Source: Roseovarius sp. (GTDB lineage Bacteria > Pseudomonadota > Alphaproteobacteria > Rhodobacterales > Rhodobacteraceae). From it: DNA of 64,000 nt. Shown one piece after another: positions 20,660 to 27,043 of this stretch. The notes beneath the pieces were generated by a model. It saw nothing but the letters and a program-made list of their open reading frames with translations. It ran no database searches and had not been told where the DNA came from. The stretch lies in the NCBI GenBank assembly GCA_029212365.1, contig JARGOC010000011.1, positions 1 to 64,000 of the forward strand. Reading direction: 5' to 3'. The position numbers were made by a program, and so were the translations under genes. Position 1 is the stretch's first letter; each line of letters starts with the position of its first letter.

Positions 20660-20681
20660 TTGTTACTTTATAAAATAACAA
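20660..20681. promoter_or_regulatory. Zur box candidate upstream of zur
   Basis: A 22-bp near-perfect palindrome: TTGTTA and TAACAA arms around TTTATAAA, differing only at one symmetric pair. It resembles the AT-rich Zur boxes of alphaproteobacteria (TGTTATA-TATAACA type). It ends 25 bp before the zur start, where a bound repressor would cover the promoter. This predicts zinc-repressed, autoregulated expression of zur and the genes behind it. Confidence 0.65.
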
Positions 20682-20706
20682 TTTTCTAGATCGTTGGAGG
20701 ATGGAC

Positions 20707-21093
20707 ATGCGCAAACAGGCAGCGGTGAGGCAAGCGGACATTCTGAAAGTGCTGAGGTCGTCTGAGGGCCCTTTGACGGCCTATCAGATTTTGGATCAGC
20801 TGCGTACAGATGAACCTGACATTGCCGCCCCGACGGTTTATCGAGCCCTGTCCGCGCTGACGGATCAAAGCAGAGCGCATAAACTTGAATCCTTAAAGGC
20901 CTTTGTTCCGTGCCGATGCAAACACGACAAAAGCCTGCCGGTGCTGACCATCTGCGATGATTGCGGGTTGGTCGAAGAACATGACGGCAAAACTCTGATG
21001 CACAAGCTTTCCTCATTGATCGCGCCCAGCAATTTCACGCCTGCGCGGCATATCGTTGAACTTCACGGTCAATGCAGCTCCTGTGCTGCCTGA
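20707..21093 (+). CDS. zur: Zur, Fur-family zinc-responsive regulator
   Basis: A 128-residue Fur-family repressor. The N-terminal winged helix includes AYQILDQLR and AAPTVYRALSALTD; the C-terminal part has two CxxC pairs (CDDC and CSSC) that form the structural zinc site in Zur/Fur. GGAGG at 20696-20700 abuts the ATG at 20701, so the ATG at 20707 is the better start. It heads a zinc operon and is preceded by a Zur-box palindrome. These two facts make Zur far more likely than Fur or PerR. Confidence 0.88.
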   Translation: MRKQAAVRQADILKVLRSSEGPLTAYQILDQLRTDEPDIAAPTVYRALSALTDQSRAHKLESLKAFVPCRCKHDKSLPVLTICDDCGLVEEHDGKTLMHKLSSLIAPSNFTPARHIVELHGQCSSCAA

Positions 21094-21123
21094 TCCATAA
21101 TTCCCACACTCGAAAGGCCCAAC

Positions 21124-21759
21124 ATGAAACACGCAATTCCCATAATCCTGACGATGCTCGCCCAGCCTGTGATCGCAGGAGAAACGCGCGAGCTTGATGC
21201 GCACGAACACGGCGTGGGTGAGCTGAACATCGCAGTCGAGGGAGACACAATAGCGATGGAACTGCATGCCCCGGGTGCCGACATCGTAGGATTCGAATAC
21301 GCGGCGAAAAGTGCTGAGGACCGGGCGGCCATCGATGGGGCCGTTGCAGCCCTTGCAAAACCGCTGGAGCTGTTTGTCTTTCCCGCATCGGCGCAATGCA
21401 GTGTGACGCAAGCCAGCGCAGAACTCGAAAGCGACGACCATGAACACGAGGATCATGCGGACGAAGGAGCACACGAAGAGCACGACGACCATGACGACCA
21501 TGATGACGGGGAACATGCTGACGCCGACGTGCATGACGACCACGAAGAGCATGCGGAAGGCGCAAGCCACACAGAGTTTCATGCCGAATACACACTGACT
21601 TGTGGCAACCTGGATGACGTGTCGAAAATCGAATTCGCTTATTTTGATGTGTTCTCCAACGCGCGCGAGCTTGAGGTGCAGATCCTTACTTCATCGGGCG
21701 CACAGGCGTATGACGTTGAGCGTGGTGATCCGACACTTGATCTGCGTGGCATGTTCTGA
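21124..21759 (+). CDS. zrgA: ZrgA-like (DUF2796) periplasmic zinc-binding protein
   Basis: A 211-residue exported protein with a signal peptide (cleavage near PVIAG). The family motif DAHEHGVGELNIAVEG is near residue 26. Residues 106-153 form an acidic, histidine-rich segment with 13 histidines, a probable zinc sponge. Two cysteines (C92, C160) flank it. In Vibrio, ZrgA belongs to a zinc uptake system with an ABC pair and two DUF3299 proteins; the same gene set follows here. It lies 30 bp downstream of zur. Confidence 0.88.
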   Translation: MKHAIPIILTMLAQPVIAGETRELDAHEHGVGELNIAVEGDTIAMELHAPGADIVGFEYAAKSAEDRAAIDGAVAALAKPLELFVFPASAQCSVTQASAELESDDHEHEDHADEGAHEEHDDHDDHDDGEHADADVHDDHEEHAEGASHTEFHAEYTLTCGNLDDVSKIEFAYFDVFSNARELEVQILTSSGAQAYDVERGDPTLDLRGMF

Positions 21760-21761
21760 AC

Positions 21762-22463
21762 GTGGCTACGGCTGACCCTATCCTTGGGCTGAAGGACGTC
21801 CAATTCCGCTGGCCGGGTCGGTCGTCTTTCGCTGTGTCAGTTCCTGAGTTTTCTGTAGCATCCGGAGAAACTGTTCTTTTGCTCGGCGAAAGTGGTTCGG
21901 GGAAATCGACACTGCTGTCATTGATCTGTGGCACTGTTCTTGCTGATGAAGGCCAGATATCGGTGTCGGGCACCAATCTGTCGACTCTGCGCAGTGGCCA
22001 GCGGGATCAATTTCGGGCCGAGCACATAGGAATGATCTTTCAGCAGTTTAATCTGCTACCGTTTGGGTCCGTTCTGGACAATATCCTTTTGCCATTGCGC
22101 TTTGCCCCGACGCGGCGGACACGCACAAAAGAGCCCCGTCACGAAGCATGTGCTCTCTGCGCAGCCTTGGGGCTACCGGCTGATATCACGTCCGCCAAGG
22201 CCTCTGATCTCAGCGTTGGCCAACAACAGCGCGTGGCCGTGGCGCGTGCGCTCATAGGCCGCCCGCCGATTATCATCGCGGACGAACCGACATCAGCGCT
22301 GGACGCTGACAGCCAGTCTGCCTTTCTTGATATTCTCTTTGGTCAGGTCAAAGCCTACGGCACCACCCTCCTGATGGTCAGCCATGATCAGCGCCTTGCC
22401 GGCCATTTTGACCGCGTGGTTCGGATGCAGGACATCGCCCATATCGAACGGCGTGCGGCATGA
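21762..22463 (+). CDS. Zrg-type ABC ATPase (MacB/LolD-like)
   Basis: A 233-residue ATPase with Walker A GESGSGKST, signature LSVGQQQRVAVARAL and Walker B IIIADEPTSALD. The subgroup pattern is that of MacB/LolD exporters rather than ZnuC. The start is GTG at 21762, 2 bp after the zrgA stop. It overlaps the FtsX-like permease gene by 4 bp. Predicted to power the Zrg zinc system with that permease. Confidence 0.88.
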   Translation: MATADPILGLKDVQFRWPGRSSFAVSVPEFSVASGETVLLLGESGSGKSTLLSLICGTVLADEGQISVSGTNLSTLRSGQRDQFRAEHIGMIFQQFNLLPFGSVLDNILLPLRFAPTRRTRTKEPRHEACALCAALGLPADITSAKASDLSVGQQQRVAVARALIGRPPIIIADEPTSALDADSQSAFLDILFGQVKAYGTTLLMVSHDQRLAGHFDRVVRMQDIAHIERRAA

Positions 22464-23710
22464 TCGTGCGGCTGGCCATTGGATCGCTCTTTGCACGGCT
22501 GCTGACGGTCAGCATGACGGTGCTGGCGATTGGCTTGTCCGTGGCGTTGTTTCTTGGTGTTGAAAAGGTACGCACCGGTGCCAAGGCCAGCTTTGCCGAT
22601 ACGATTTCAGGCACAGATCTGATTGTAGGTGCGCGCTCGGGCTCAGTTCAGCTTTTGCTGTATTCCGTGTTCCGGATCGGGAACGCCACCAACAACGTCA
22701 CCTGGAAAAGCTATCAGGACATTGCGGCGCGCCCCGATGTAGAATGGATTGTACCTATCTCGTTGGGCGACAGCCACCGTCAGTTCAGGGTGATGGGCAC
22801 AAGCACCGCGTTCTTTGAGCATTACAAATACAGGCAGGGCCGCGATCTTGCTGTTTCGGATGGTGCGATTATGGCAGATTTGTTTGACGCTGTGATTGGC
22901 TCGGATGTGGCAAAGGCGCTGGGATATAAAGTTGATGATCCAATTGTGGTGGCCCATGGGCTGGCGTCCTTCACGGAACACAAAGATCAACCATTTCGTG
23001 TGTCCGGCATTCTGGAAAAAACCGGCACACCAGTAGACCGGACGGTCATTGTCAGCATGGAAGCGATCGAGGCGGTCCATGTAGATTGGAAGAACGGCGC
23101 GCAGAGGCCGGGACAAGCCACACCCGTGGACGCAATAAGGCAGATGGATCTGACCCCGAAGGCCGTGACCGCGGCATTAGTGGGCGTTAAAAGTCCGCTT
23201 AAAACCTTCGCGTTGCAGCGCGCGATCAATGAGTATTCCGAAGAGCCACTGTTGGCAGTTCTACCCGGCGTCGCCCTGCAAGAGCTGTGGGCTATCGTCG
23301 GTGTGGCCGAAATTGCACTGCTTGGGGTGTCGGCAATGGTGGTGGTGACGGCCTTGATCGGCATGATGGCCACGATCTTCTCCAGCCTGAACGAGCGACG
23401 CCGCGAGATGGCAATTTTCCGCGCGATGGGCGCACGCCCCACCACGATCTTTGGCTTGCTGATCCTAGAGGCCGTTCTGACCGCAACCATCGGCGCGTTG
23501 CTCGGCTTGTGCTTGTTGTATTTGGGGTTGTTCATCGCCCAACCCCTCCTCGACAGTGCATTCGGGCTTTGGCTGCCGATTGATGCGCCATCTCTGCACG
23601 AGCTATGGGTGTTGTGCAGTGTGGTGGCCGCTAGCGCAATTGTGAGCTTGGTTCCGGCACTTCGGGCCTACCGACTTTCATTGGCAGATGGTATGATGGT
23701 GAGAACATGA
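22460..23710 (+). CDS. Zrg-type FtsX/MacB-like ABC permease
   Basis: A 416-residue permease with one N-terminal membrane helix (~15-35), a periplasmic domain of ~230 residues (~40-275) and three C-terminal helices (~285-410), the layout of FtsX/MacB-type proteins. The C-terminal region has the conserved cytoplasmic loop NERRREMAIFRAMGA. It overlaps its neighbours by 4 bp on both sides. Such mechanotransmission-type permeases do not usually import metal ions themselves, which makes its role in zinc acquisition interesting. Confidence 0.87.
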   Translation: MIVRLAIGSLFARLLTVSMTVLAIGLSVALFLGVEKVRTGAKASFADTISGTDLIVGARSGSVQLLLYSVFRIGNATNNVTWKSYQDIAARPDVEWIVPISLGDSHRQFRVMGTSTAFFEHYKYRQGRDLAVSDGAIMADLFDAVIGSDVAKALGYKVDDPIVVAHGLASFTEHKDQPFRVSGILEKTGTPVDRTVIVSMEAIEAVHVDWKNGAQRPGQATPVDAIRQMDLTPKAVTAALVGVKSPLKTFALQRAINEYSEEPLLAVLPGVALQELWAIVGVAEIALLGVSAMVVVTALIGMMATIFSSLNERRREMAIFRAMGARPTTIFGLLILEAVLTATIGALLGLCLLYLGLFIAQPLLDSAFGLWLPIDAPSLHELWVLCSVVAASAIVSLVPALRAYRLSLADGMMVRT

Positions 23711-24225
23711 CACATTCAACACGCAGGCACTTTATCGCAGCAGTAGCAGCAGCGGCTGCTGGTGCCGCATTGCCCAGCCGACTGCGGGCCCGCACCGCAC
23801 GTGAAATCACTTGGGACGATCTTATCCCGCCCGGCGTTCCCTACTCTGAAATTATCGGCGAGGGAGACATGGATGAAGCCAGTGACACCTGGAACCCGAT
23901 CTTTGACGCCAATGCGACCAAGCTGAACGCAGCGTTGGATGGGATGTTTATCCGCATGCCTGGATATATTCTGCCTCTTGAACAGAGCTCCGAAGGGGTG
24001 ACGGAATTCGTATTGGTGCCCTATGTCGGTGCCTGCCTTCACGTGCCACCTCCGCCACCAAACCAGCTTGTTCTGGTCCAAACCCCCAAGCCTTGGCCGA
24101 ACAACAAACTGTGGGAAGCCATCTGGGTCACTGGTACGATGCGTGCGATTTTGCAATCTACTGAGGTGGCCGAGACGGGCTACACTTTGTCAGCCGAAAG
24201 CCTGGAGACTTACGTATGGGAATAG
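23707..24225 (+). CDS. DUF3299 protein, Zrg operon (first copy)
   Basis: A 172-residue exported protein with a Tat-like signal (RRHFIAAVAAAAAGAALP). The DUF3299 core has MPGYILPLE and VPYVGACLHVPPPPPNQ, where C and H could bind metal. In the Vibrio Zrg system two such proteins accompany ZrgA. Its start overlaps the permease stop by 4 bp. Export by Tat would suggest folding or cofactor loading in the cytoplasm. Confidence 0.83.
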   Translation: MTHSTRRHFIAAVAAAAAGAALPSRLRARTAREITWDDLIPPGVPYSEIIGEGDMDEASDTWNPIFDANATKLNAALDGMFIRMPGYILPLEQSSEGVTEFVLVPYVGACLHVPPPPPNQLVLVQTPKPWPNNKLWEAIWVTGTMRAILQSTEVAETGYTLSAESLETYVWE

Positions 24226-24725
24226 ATCGTTTGTCACGTCGGCAGGCACTCGGTCTTTTAGCGGCGTGTTTGTTGATACCCAGATCAGCCTTGGCCAAAA
24301 CCATTATTGATTTGGGCTGGAATGATCTGCTCCCCAAGGATGAGCCCTTTGTCCCAAACGCTGTGCGCGGTTTGATTGATCATGATGGTCCCGACCTGTC
24401 ACGTCAGCAGCCTGCATCATATGGCATAAGAACAGATTGGAATGAGAAAACCGTCCGCTTACCGGGGTTTGTAGTCCCCATCGACCAACGCGGCACAGGT
24501 GTGGAAACCTTTATCTTGGTGCCTTATGTGGGCGCTTGCATCCACGTCCCGCCTCCACCTGCAAATCAGTTGGTGTTTGTGACCACCGAAGATCCCTTTG
24601 AAAGCAGCGGCATGTTCGAGTCAGTTACCGTAACAGGGATCATTAGAACCTCGTCCATTTCGACCGACCTGGCTCAAGTTGGGTATTCTTTGATTGCAGA
24701 AAAAATTGTGCCCTATCAGGACTGA
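24216..24725 (+). CDS. DUF3299 protein, Zrg operon (second copy)
   Basis: A 169-residue paralogue of the preceding gene, overlapping it by 10 bp. The signal SRRQALGLLAACLLIPRSA is Tat-like. It shares the core LPGFVVPID and VPYVGACIHVPPPPANQ with conserved Cys and His. The tandem pair suggests an old duplication and probably a heteromeric periplasmic component. It is the last gene of the zinc operon. Confidence 0.83.
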   Translation: MGIDRLSRRQALGLLAACLLIPRSALAKTIIDLGWNDLLPKDEPFVPNAVRGLIDHDGPDLSRQQPASYGIRTDWNEKTVRLPGFVVPIDQRGTGVETFILVPYVGACIHVPPPPANQLVFVTTEDPFESSGMFESVTVTGIIRTSSISTDLAQVGYSLIAEKIVPYQD

Positions 24726-25759: not shown

Positions 25760-27043
25760 TCATACAGCAGACTTCATGCGCTTGCTGACACTGTCATGCC
25801 GGTGCGCAATCATCTTGGCCACATAGGCCGCATCTTCTGCCACTCTGAGGAAACGACCCGACCCCCATGTGTTGAGCCAGCCCAGGCCCAAGAAATAGAC
25901 GCCATCCTCATCACAAACGCCGCGCGTGTGCACAGGACGGCCCCGCCGATCAAGACAATCGACCTGCAGCCAGTCATAATTCGGGCGAAAGCCGATGCAC
26001 CATAGCACAGAGGTGATCCCTTCAGCGGCGGCATCAATTTGCGTGATTTCAGTGTCTGGATGCCAGACTTTTTCGAATGGCGGCTCAGGCGGTGCATCAA
26101 TCCCTTCGCGCTCGATGTAATCATCAATCATTGTGCGGATACCAACATAGCTTTTGTCCGCATCATCAAGGTTTTGCCCCAAGTCTTGCAGGAATCGGAT
26201 TGTCGTCCCATCCATGTCCGAGACAGAACCGTAAAGCTGCAACCCATCCAGCGCAAAACGGCGTAAATCGATCTCGTGGCCCCCATCGCGGCCTGACATG
26301 TAGTGGTTGGTCTTTGCCTCGGTCGCTTGCGGGTCTGGTTGCTGTGCAATTGTAATGTCATAATACCCCATTTGATGCAGCCAGTCCGTTGCATCCTTGC
26401 CGCGATACCACCGCGGACTGCGCGGAGCAGGACCAACAGCAAGCTGCACTTCACGTCCGGCGATGTGCAGGTCCTCCATCAGCTGCACGCCCGATTGACC
26501 CGTACCAACGACAAGACAAATGCCCTCAGGTATGTCCGACGGGCGACGATATGATTTGGAATGTATCTGTGTAATTGTCGGGTCCAGCTTGCTGGCGAAG
26601 GACGGTGTGACGGGCCGGTCATATCCGCCGGAGGCAATGATCACATGATCAGCAGACCACAGTCCCTGATCGGTATCGACTTCAAAAATCCCGTCAATTT
26701 TCTCAATACGGGTTACTGTCACACCTTCGCGCAGCGGGGCATCGAAACTGTCACAAAAGGCTTCGACGTAATCGATGATTTCGTCTTTCACCATAAAGCC
26801 CGTTGGGTCTTCGCCGCGATACGGGAAATCCGGCAATTTGCACTGCCAGTTTGGCGTCACCAGACAAAAGCTGTCCCAACGATCCTCTTTCCATGCGTGA
26901 AAGCGTTGGTGGCGTTCCAGTACGACATGATCGATATCTGCCTGGCACAAATAATAGGATGCAGACATCCCAGCTTGACCAGCACCAACGATAACCGTTG
27001 TGACATGGGTGCGCGGCGCGAGCGTTACTGGATTGACAGACAT
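25760..27043 (-). CDS. nitH: NitH, nit1C flavin-dependent oxidoreductase (MSMEG_0569 family)
   Basis: A 427-residue flavoprotein monooxygenase-like enzyme. The FAD-binding GAGQAGMSASYYL is near residue 21, and an NADPH-type GTGQSGVQLMED is near residue 178. It belongs to the family found only with the nitrilase cluster nit1C, which in pseudomonads and others is linked to growth on cyanide. It is the last gene of the leftward nitB-nitH operon and overlaps nitG by 19 bp. Substrate unknown. Confidence 0.88.
   Translation of the reverse strand: MSVNPVTLAPRTHVTTVIVGAGQAGMSASYYLCQADIDHVVLERHQRFHAWKEDRWDSFCLVTPNWQCKLPDFPYRGEDPTGFMVKDEIIDYVEAFCDSFDAPLREGVTVTRIEKIDGIFEVDTDQGLWSADHVIIASGGYDRPVTPSFASKLDPTITQIHSKSYRRPSDIPEGICLVVGTGQSGVQLMEDLHIAGREVQLAVGPAPRSPRWYRGKDATDWLHQMGYYDITIAQQPDPQATEAKTNHYMSGRDGGHEIDLRRFALDGLQLYGSVSDMDGTTIRFLQDLGQNLDDADKSYVGIRTMIDDYIEREGIDAPPEPPFEKVWHPDTEITQIDAAAEGITSVLWCIGFRPNYDWLQVDCLDRRGRPVHTRGVCDEDGVYFLGLGWLNTWGSGRFLRVAEDAAYVAKMIAHRHDSVSKRMKSAV

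Follow-up and report, generated by a model that had tools for sequence, protein, structure and literature searches.

A zrg zinc operon of Roseovarius with a Zur-family paralogue, a predicted private operator and an altered candidate sensor site

Introduction

Which regulator controls a zinc operon that begins with a Zur-like gene of its own, and what could a MacB-type machine contribute to zinc supply, be it import, export or periplasmic hand-off? Both questions are raised by a zrg operon of Roseovarius sp. (Rhodobacteraceae) located within positions 1 to 64,000 of contig JARGOC010000011.1 (assembly GCA_029212365.1). This stretch of 64,000 nucleotides is referred to as the window. The operon encodes a Zur-family regulator, for which the label zurZ was coined in this analysis, the periplasmic protein ZrgA, a MacB-like permease (ZrgB) with a separate ATP-binding cassette (ABC) ATPase (ZrgC) whose gene adjoins zrgA, and two DUF3299 proteins (D1 and D2). 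This gene content supports its assignment as a Zrg zinc system. With a probability of roughly 0.72 we regard it as a zinc-starvation operon under the control of its own Zur-family repressor, ZurZ. The operon type is already known; what looks new is its regulation by ZurZ, which appears to have an operator of its own and an altered sensor. With two regulators and two operators in one cell, the locus is a small natural test case for how a single operon comes to have a metal-sensor paralogue to itself. Published work is cited by PubMed Central (PMC) identifier.

Results and Discussion

ZurZ and the canonical Zur of the same cell

In an earlier note on this DNA the operon had been called Zur-led. 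A Zur-family gene does lead it, but its product is a Zur paralogue with an operator of its own and an altered candidate sensor site, and the canonical Zur is encoded elsewhere. Four Fur-family matches were found in the window's genome. One of them, at G000:C23:26121-26471, is a canonical zur that adjoins znuC and is divergent from znuA; the box GTTACCTTATAACAT between canonical zur and znuA fits the published Paracoccus Zur motif (PMC5387054). These four matches, with one canonical Zur gene beside znuC and znuA, ruled out that the leading gene encodes the only Zur of the cell. ZurZ is 32% identical to the canonical Zur of the genome over the aligned part and lacks the N-terminal extension present in that protein. 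Its closest named model is E. coli Zur (NF008646), matched with 85.3 bits and thus below the cut-off of 167. In a Fur-family tree of 58 rows, the 37 ZurZ rows formed one clade (support 99/92; recovered in 200/200 bootstrap trees) which was separate from both znu-linked Zur and a third Zur-like group.

The third group, labelled zurY (loci L103-L114), is 42-49% identical to ZurZ. An open reading frame (ORF) for an ABC ATPase is adjacent in 9/12 of these loci, and a canonical-type box was found upstream by eye in 9/12. Loci L212-L219 have similar scores and perhaps belong to the same group.

A profile of seven ZurZ proteins was searched against 394 genomes of Rhodobacteraceae. Matches of at least 213 bits were obtained in 18 of them (19 places), while the next group scored at most 156 bits. 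In a class-wide sample, only two of 385 genomes had a ZurZ match, both from the window's family and one being the window's own genome; eight further genomes scored 125 to 156 bits. Twenty-five family genomes have ZrgA over the cut-off, seven of them with zurZ. Fifteen of the other 18 served as zrg controls without intact zurZ; G043 and G020 were excluded as no zrgB was found around the match, and G118 as the contig end cuts it. The ZrgA matches of G045 and G096 are below the cut-off. A canonical Zur match was found in all 18 zurZ genomes and all 15 controls (33/33), the copy of G009 having one in-frame stop. ZnuA was likewise matched in 33/33, so zrg does not replace znu in these genomes. Two zurZ-led zrg operons (L060, L061), separated by about 209 kb, are present in G013. 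Both have an operator of their own, and D1 is split into two ORFs in one copy.

Alphaproteobacterial ZrgA has already been noted as a group (PMC7731109). For a zrg-linked Zur, or a second Zur such as this one, a literature search gave no paper among the matches listed, most subscription journals being outside its coverage.

The operator upstream of zurZ

The zurZ operator TGTTAYTTTATAAARTAACA, referred to as the Z-box, differs from the canonical Zur box. In the window it is represented by TGTTACTTTATAAAATAACA, the sole match to TGTTAYNTTATAANRTAACA at up to three mismatches (chance mean 0.01). The window's genome contains a single copy of the 18-bp pattern GTTAYTTTATAAARTAAC when up to one mismatch is allowed. 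When 33 zurZ operons were aligned, the box reached 1.65 bits per column as compared to 0.24 in the 40 nt on its left and 0.38 in the 20 nt on its right, a contrast explained in part by construction, the alignment being anchored on the best box match. At the same stringency the 18-bp pattern was detected in 15/18 zurZ genomes and in 0/15 zrg genomes without intact zurZ; its reversed control had no match in any of the 33. All 16 sites (G013 contributes two) are located directly upstream of a zurZ match by coordinates. Judged by motif, ZurZ would thus have one target, its own operon. That the Z-box is an ordinary Zur box was set aside as the best reading, since the core TTTATAAA occurs in the box at zurZ operons only. 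A promoter scan revealed no consensus σ70 site near the operator.

In the window's genome, the canonical pattern GTWAYNNWATAACAW was found without mismatch at the zur/znuA site only. With one mismatch, it had 15 matches as compared to 38 for the reversed control pattern, and further boxes of this type, including those at a porin-like gene and at hisI, are therefore candidates only. The former (G000:C19:49055-49072) is a palindromic Zur-like box with one mismatch. It lies upstream of the porin-like gene (PF13609, below cut-off at E 0.0031), between this gene and an ORF that we take to be imelysin-like. The latter (G000:C28:84610-84626), a canonical-type box also with one mismatch, lies just upstream of the likely start of a phosphoribosyl-AMP cyclohydrolase gene (hisI). 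Other cases of hisI copies under Zur control have been described (hisI2; PMC6103462).

Association of regulator and box type

Box types were assigned in 100 operons that differ in ZrgB; three whose ZrgB was identical entered as one. The zurZ-led operons comprised 24 with a Z-type box (core TTTATAAA), four in the canonical class and two that were too short. Among operons without zurZ, none had a Z-type box, 27 fell into the canonical class, 42 had neither and one was unscored (L149, without zrgA upstream). The canonical class was defined strictly (TGTTAYNNTATAACA, at most one mismatch), and some operons with neither box have looser canonical-like boxes, as in L062. The association of regulator and box is strong (Fisher p 9e-12, uncorrected for descent).

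On a 'quick' tree of ZrgB, in which two long branches were joined, the presence or absence of zurZ requires 14 changes, three of them forced by well-supported branches. Regulator and operon may hence not simply share descent. Remnants of zurZ were detected in two of 66 searched operons without zurZ: L077 has a decayed copy with the middle missing, together with a canonical box, and L136 has a C-terminal remnant. Four further matches were the canonical zur of SAR11. Within the ZurZ clade, L159 branches off first. Its regulator, encoded about 1.4 kb before zrgA, has the canonical sensor histidine together with the new cysteine and histidine residues, and its box is near-canonical. Relatives that keep or lose zurZ, basal L159 with its intermediate features and the decayed copies in L077 and L136 all contribute to the natural test case mentioned above.

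An altered candidate sensor site

Compared with the canonical Zur proteins of E. coli (4mtd) and Paracoccus denitrificans, with which it shares the Fur family, four structural cysteines and H60, C71 and E93, ZurZ lacks the sensor histidine, carries C73, H75 and H94 in addition, and has another operator. H60, C71, E93 and the structural cysteines C85, C88, C125 and C128 are common to 37/37 ZurZ rows and the canonical rows. Equally invariant in ZurZ (37/37) are C73, H75 and H94, giving the motifs C71-x-C73-x-H75 and E93-H94. In the third group C73 occurs in 5/12 and H75 in 3/12 rows; both are found in none of seven canonical rows and neither of two references, and H94 is confined to ZurZ among the rows compared. 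The canonical sensor histidine (position 78 in the window's sequence) is present in six of seven znu- or zrg-linked canonical rows and in both references. In ZurZ it is replaced by S, A or R in 36/37, L159 being the only one to keep it. From E. coli Zur we take this histidine to be a metal ligand. The E. coli site in question is made up of three histidines and one glutamate (PMC5387054). From these substitutions we infer that the putative metal-sensing site of ZurZ has been altered.

The regulator might sense something other than zinc supply, for example another metal or thiol oxidation at CxCxH, and the operon might serve that purpose. The invariant CxCxH and EH motifs and the loss of the sensor histidine would be in line with this idea. 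As H60, C71, E93 and the structural cysteines are kept throughout, and as ZrgA and the relatives of the operon are linked to zinc, we consider it unlikely.

The zinc link of the operon is supported by gene neighbourhood. In four SAR11 loci, znuA, znuC and zur are found in one cluster with zrgA, zrgC, zrgB and a DUF3299 gene. These loci (L187, L190, L193 and L194; Pelagibacteraceae) keep znu, zur and zrg clustered despite reduced genomes. High-affinity zinc uptake has been described as an exception to the minimised metal uptake of SAR11 (PMC4771312). In L057 and L160 znu lies beside zrg, and in L063 and L077 a COG0523-type GTPase gene, as judged from its sequence alone, is next to the operon.

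Predicted control of the zrg operon

With sufficient zinc, zinc-loaded ZurZ would occupy the 20-bp Z-box upstream of the first gene and switch off the whole operon, zurZ included. A fall in cytosolic zinc would release the operon separately from canonical Zur, which would keep znu, and perhaps a hisI gene, under control of the ordinary box. Based on predicted binding, ZurZ seems to be a zinc regulator that has been rewired locally and has a single target. It may uncouple the zrg machine from the zinc response of the cell at large, and the role of zrg could then be approached by its release alone in a zurZ deletion.

Some observations speak against control by ZurZ. Under the strict rule, 42/69 operons without zurZ have neither box, and four operons with zurZ (L117, L122, L125 and L159) fall into the canonical class. 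No Z-box with one mismatch was found in G165, G286 and G335 (3/18 zurZ genomes), where weaker boxes with two or three mismatches are present (L095, L098 and L096). The sole genome of the same genus that was searched (G278) has no ZurZ match. A pairs test on the ZrgB tree found only three pairs on well-supported branches, with on average 1.8 in agreement, 0.0 in disagreement and 1.2 without difference; this is consistent with co-switching, three pairs being too few to reach significance. Finally, a single mismatch separates the Z-box of the window from the canonical 15-mer, and canonical Zur might for this reason cross-bind it.

The last point and the four operons with canonical-class boxes would also fit control by canonical Zur, in which case zurZ would be a redundant or weakly modifying duplicate and the box difference cosmetic. 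We judge this quite improbable, because zurZ is conserved with invariant unusual residues, box type tracks the regulator (24/4 versus 0/27) and the Z-box is absent from the 15 zrg genomes without intact zurZ. Returning to control by ZurZ, a broader scenario is put forward tentatively, at somewhat less than even odds: roseobacters may run two insulated zinc circuits, one consisting of canonical Zur and znuABC, the other of single-target ZurZ with its CxCxH/EH site, its own operator and zrg. The operon would have moved back and forth between them, operator and regulator switching together, and the second sensor would respond at another zinc threshold, or to another signal, than canonical Zur.

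Relation to known Zrg systems

Identification as a Zrg zinc system, as proposed in the earlier note, was supported by the family matches and by the relatives 7ahw and 4hsp. ZrgA has 17 histidines in 211 amino acids. Among structures in the PDB, it matched 7ahw (PA4063; E 6.9e-23) and 8ezw, which is named as a zinc-binding protein (E 7.5e-17) and is presumably ZrgA of V. cholerae.

The set had been introduced as best known from Vibrio. A Vibrio system does exist, but this description omits PA4063-PA4066 of Pseudomonas aeruginosa, for which crystal structures (7ahw, 4hsp) and an export proposal (PMC11481552) are available. The zrgABCDE genes of V. cholerae and V. parahaemolyticus resemble the Roseovarius operon in ZrgA, the ATPase, the MacB-like permease, DUF3299 and the link to zinc starvation (PMC9817125, PMC9820375). 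They differ in that the Roseovarius operon includes a regulator gene, has two DUF3299 paralogues and leaves no room for zrgD. In P. aeruginosa the four component types are the same, and PA4063 and PA4066 are sequence relatives; there, the operon is described as Zur-controlled (PMC11481552), and its four genes comprise a single DUF3299 gene but no regulator gene. The genes of the Roseovarius operon leave no space between them for zrgD (DUF2607), a result that covers the operon only. ZrgD is a non-defining part of the Zrg system: most Vibrionaceae have it, though not all, and V. fischeri and P. profundum lack it (PMC9817125).

A type VII-like machine and its possible role in zinc supply

The view of the earlier note that a MacB/FtsX-type machine is odd for zinc import is supported by the fold matches of ZrgB to type VII permeases. 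An AlphaFold model of ZrgB (mean predicted local distance difference test score, pLDDT, 80.9) matched 5xu1 (Z 25.4; root-mean-square deviation 5.0 over 356), LolE (Z 22.6; 6.9 over 368), HrtB (Z 19.9; 5.2 over 327) and MacB (5nik, Z 18.6, 7.7 over 354; 5gko, Z 18.2). The model supports a type VII permease fold, unlike that of an ion importer. For ZrgC, the best NCBIfam models were DevA, YbbA, LolD and FtsE, each below its cut-off. ZrgBC resembles the type VII ABC machines LolCDE, MacB, HrtBA and FtsEX in its permease fold, and LolCDE, HrtBA and FtsEX in having a separate ATPase; it differs from them in being encoded with zinc-binding ZrgA and OB-like DUF3299 proteins. Partners of known type VII machines are LolA, MacA and EnvC, none of which was found next to the operon.

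In the model that we favour, ZrgA would gather zinc in the periplasm. ZrgB and ZrgC would together make up an ABC machine of type VII (MacB/LolCDE-type), which moves at the expense of ATP and thereby works on partners in the periplasm. We do not picture this machine as a channel through which ions enter the cytoplasm; instead, it may drive the hand-off of zinc between ZrgA, the DUF3299 proteins with their OB fold, and acceptors further downstream. This reading is preferred tentatively, ahead of import, export and any other role, in that order. Two reports count against it: zrgA matters in a znuA deletion background of V. cholerae, which does not suit a pure hand-off to ZnuA (PMC9820375), and the P. 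aeruginosa data have been read as export of a metallophore-cobalt complex (PMC11481552).

The first of these reports would fit a true zinc importer, with ZrgA as its binding protein and ZrgB as the route of zinc into the cytoplasm. Under zinc limitation, the V. cholerae znuA deletion strain is helped to grow by zrgA (PMC9820375), and in V. parahaemolyticus the genes are strongly induced by zinc limitation (PMC9817125). Presence of ZnuA in all 33 zrg genomes, where znu is evidently not replaced, and the match of ZrgB to LolE, MacB, HrtB and FtsX speak against import, and none of these machines is known to import ions. Import is therefore rated as rather unlikely.

Export of a metallophore or metal chelate by a MacB-type ZrgBC, as proposed for pyochelin-cobalt and PA4064-PA4065 (PMC11481552), would agree with the fold matches to MacB and with an ORF downstream of the operon in L062 which, as judged from sequence only, resembles an outer-membrane factor. 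Neither MacA nor TolC is encoded by the three genes scanned beside the operon, the rest of the genome not being searched, and a role in zinc supply is a better fit than one with a siderophore for the shared placement of zrg and znu in SAR11 operons. The pyochelin marker TIGR01803 reached 47 bits in the window's genome (cut-off 73.35); this marker is non-specific, with matches at E up to 0.001 in 32/33 zrg genomes (over the cut-off in 5/33) and in 10/14 control genomes. Export appears less probable still than import, and any other role of the machine is given the least weight.

The DUF3299 proteins

D1 and D2 are 34% identical, and both are related to 4hsp (PA4066; E 1.7e-29 and 6.8e-24, respectively). 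In alignments they look like two separate groups, either of which is absent in some operons. DUF3299 has been assigned an OB-like (oligonucleotide/oligosaccharide-binding) fold (PMC8561739). An AlphaFold model of D1 (pLDDT 89.8) had 4hsp as its sole strong fold match (Z 18.8); the other matches shown were OB folds of MCM, tRNA synthetases and RPA (Z up to 8.0). CcmE appeared at Foldseek rank 9 (E 6.5e-3), from which no functional clue was drawn. The motif GAC.H.PPP..NQ, which includes Cys-x-His, is invariant in 61/61 DUF3299 rows. Two consecutive arginines (RR) precede the core in 52/61 rows; the nine rows without them all belong to loci whose titles name Hyphomicrobium, Pelagibacteraceae, Rhodospirillales or Proteobacteria. 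This suggests export of DUF3299 proteins by the twin-arginine translocation (Tat) pathway in Rhodobacterales, which would imply folding before export.

Ten distinct operons have an extra gene of about 350-430 codons between the permease gene (or D1) and D2. Its products show a signal peptide followed by Cys-(Ala/Ser/Gly)-Phe-His in 8/10 and by Cys-x-Phe-Asp in 2/10, and no Pfam family over the cut-off was found in the four members scanned.

Operon layout and neighbouring genes

The six genes and their operator form one unit on the plus strand, and all elements named in the earlier note, from the operator and regulator to the two DUF3299 genes, were found between 20661 and 24725 as it had reported. 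Its description as tightly overlapping holds for the last four genes, zrgC-zrgB-D1-D2 (overlaps of 4, 4 and 10 nt), but not for zurZ-zrgA and zrgA-zrgC, which are separated by 30 and 2 nt. The zurZ start common to relatives (MRK) corresponds to position 20707.

Table 1. Elements of the zrg operon (window coordinates) and loci with the extra gene (coordinates of the respective loci).
Feature	Position	Strand	Description	Evidence
Operator (Z-box) TGTTACTTTATAAAATAACA	20661..20680	+	20-bp palindrome	core TTTATAAA
zurZ	20701..21093 (ORF)	+	Fur/Zur-family paralogue	PF01475, 32.4 bits (cut-off 23.1)
zrgA	21124..21759	+	periplasmic His-rich zinc-binding protein	PF10986, 170.3 bits; NF047873, 212.5 bits (cut-off 185)
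zrgC	21762..22463	+	ABC ATPase of LolD/MacB/FtsE/DevA type; GTG start	PF00005
zrgB	22460..23710	+	MacB/LolE-like permease, large periplasmic domain	MacB_PCD and FtsX domains
D1	23707..24225	+	DUF3299 paralogue (zrgE-like), OB-like fold, RR in signal region	PF11736, 130.4 bits
D2	24216..24725	+	DUF3299 paralogue (zrgE-like), RR in signal region	PF11736, 131 bits
Extra gene, other loci	L062:10501-11547; L170:7631-8923 (same as L063:10497-11789); L068, L079, L120, L133, L148, L172, L174, L181			

Three flanking genes were scanned, encoding a LysR regulator, a UgpC-like ATPase and a flavin oxidoreductase, and are unrelated to the operon. The last of these (25760-27043) is convergent with the zrg operon and belongs to the MSMEG_0569 family (TIGR04046, 591.6 bits, above the cut-off).

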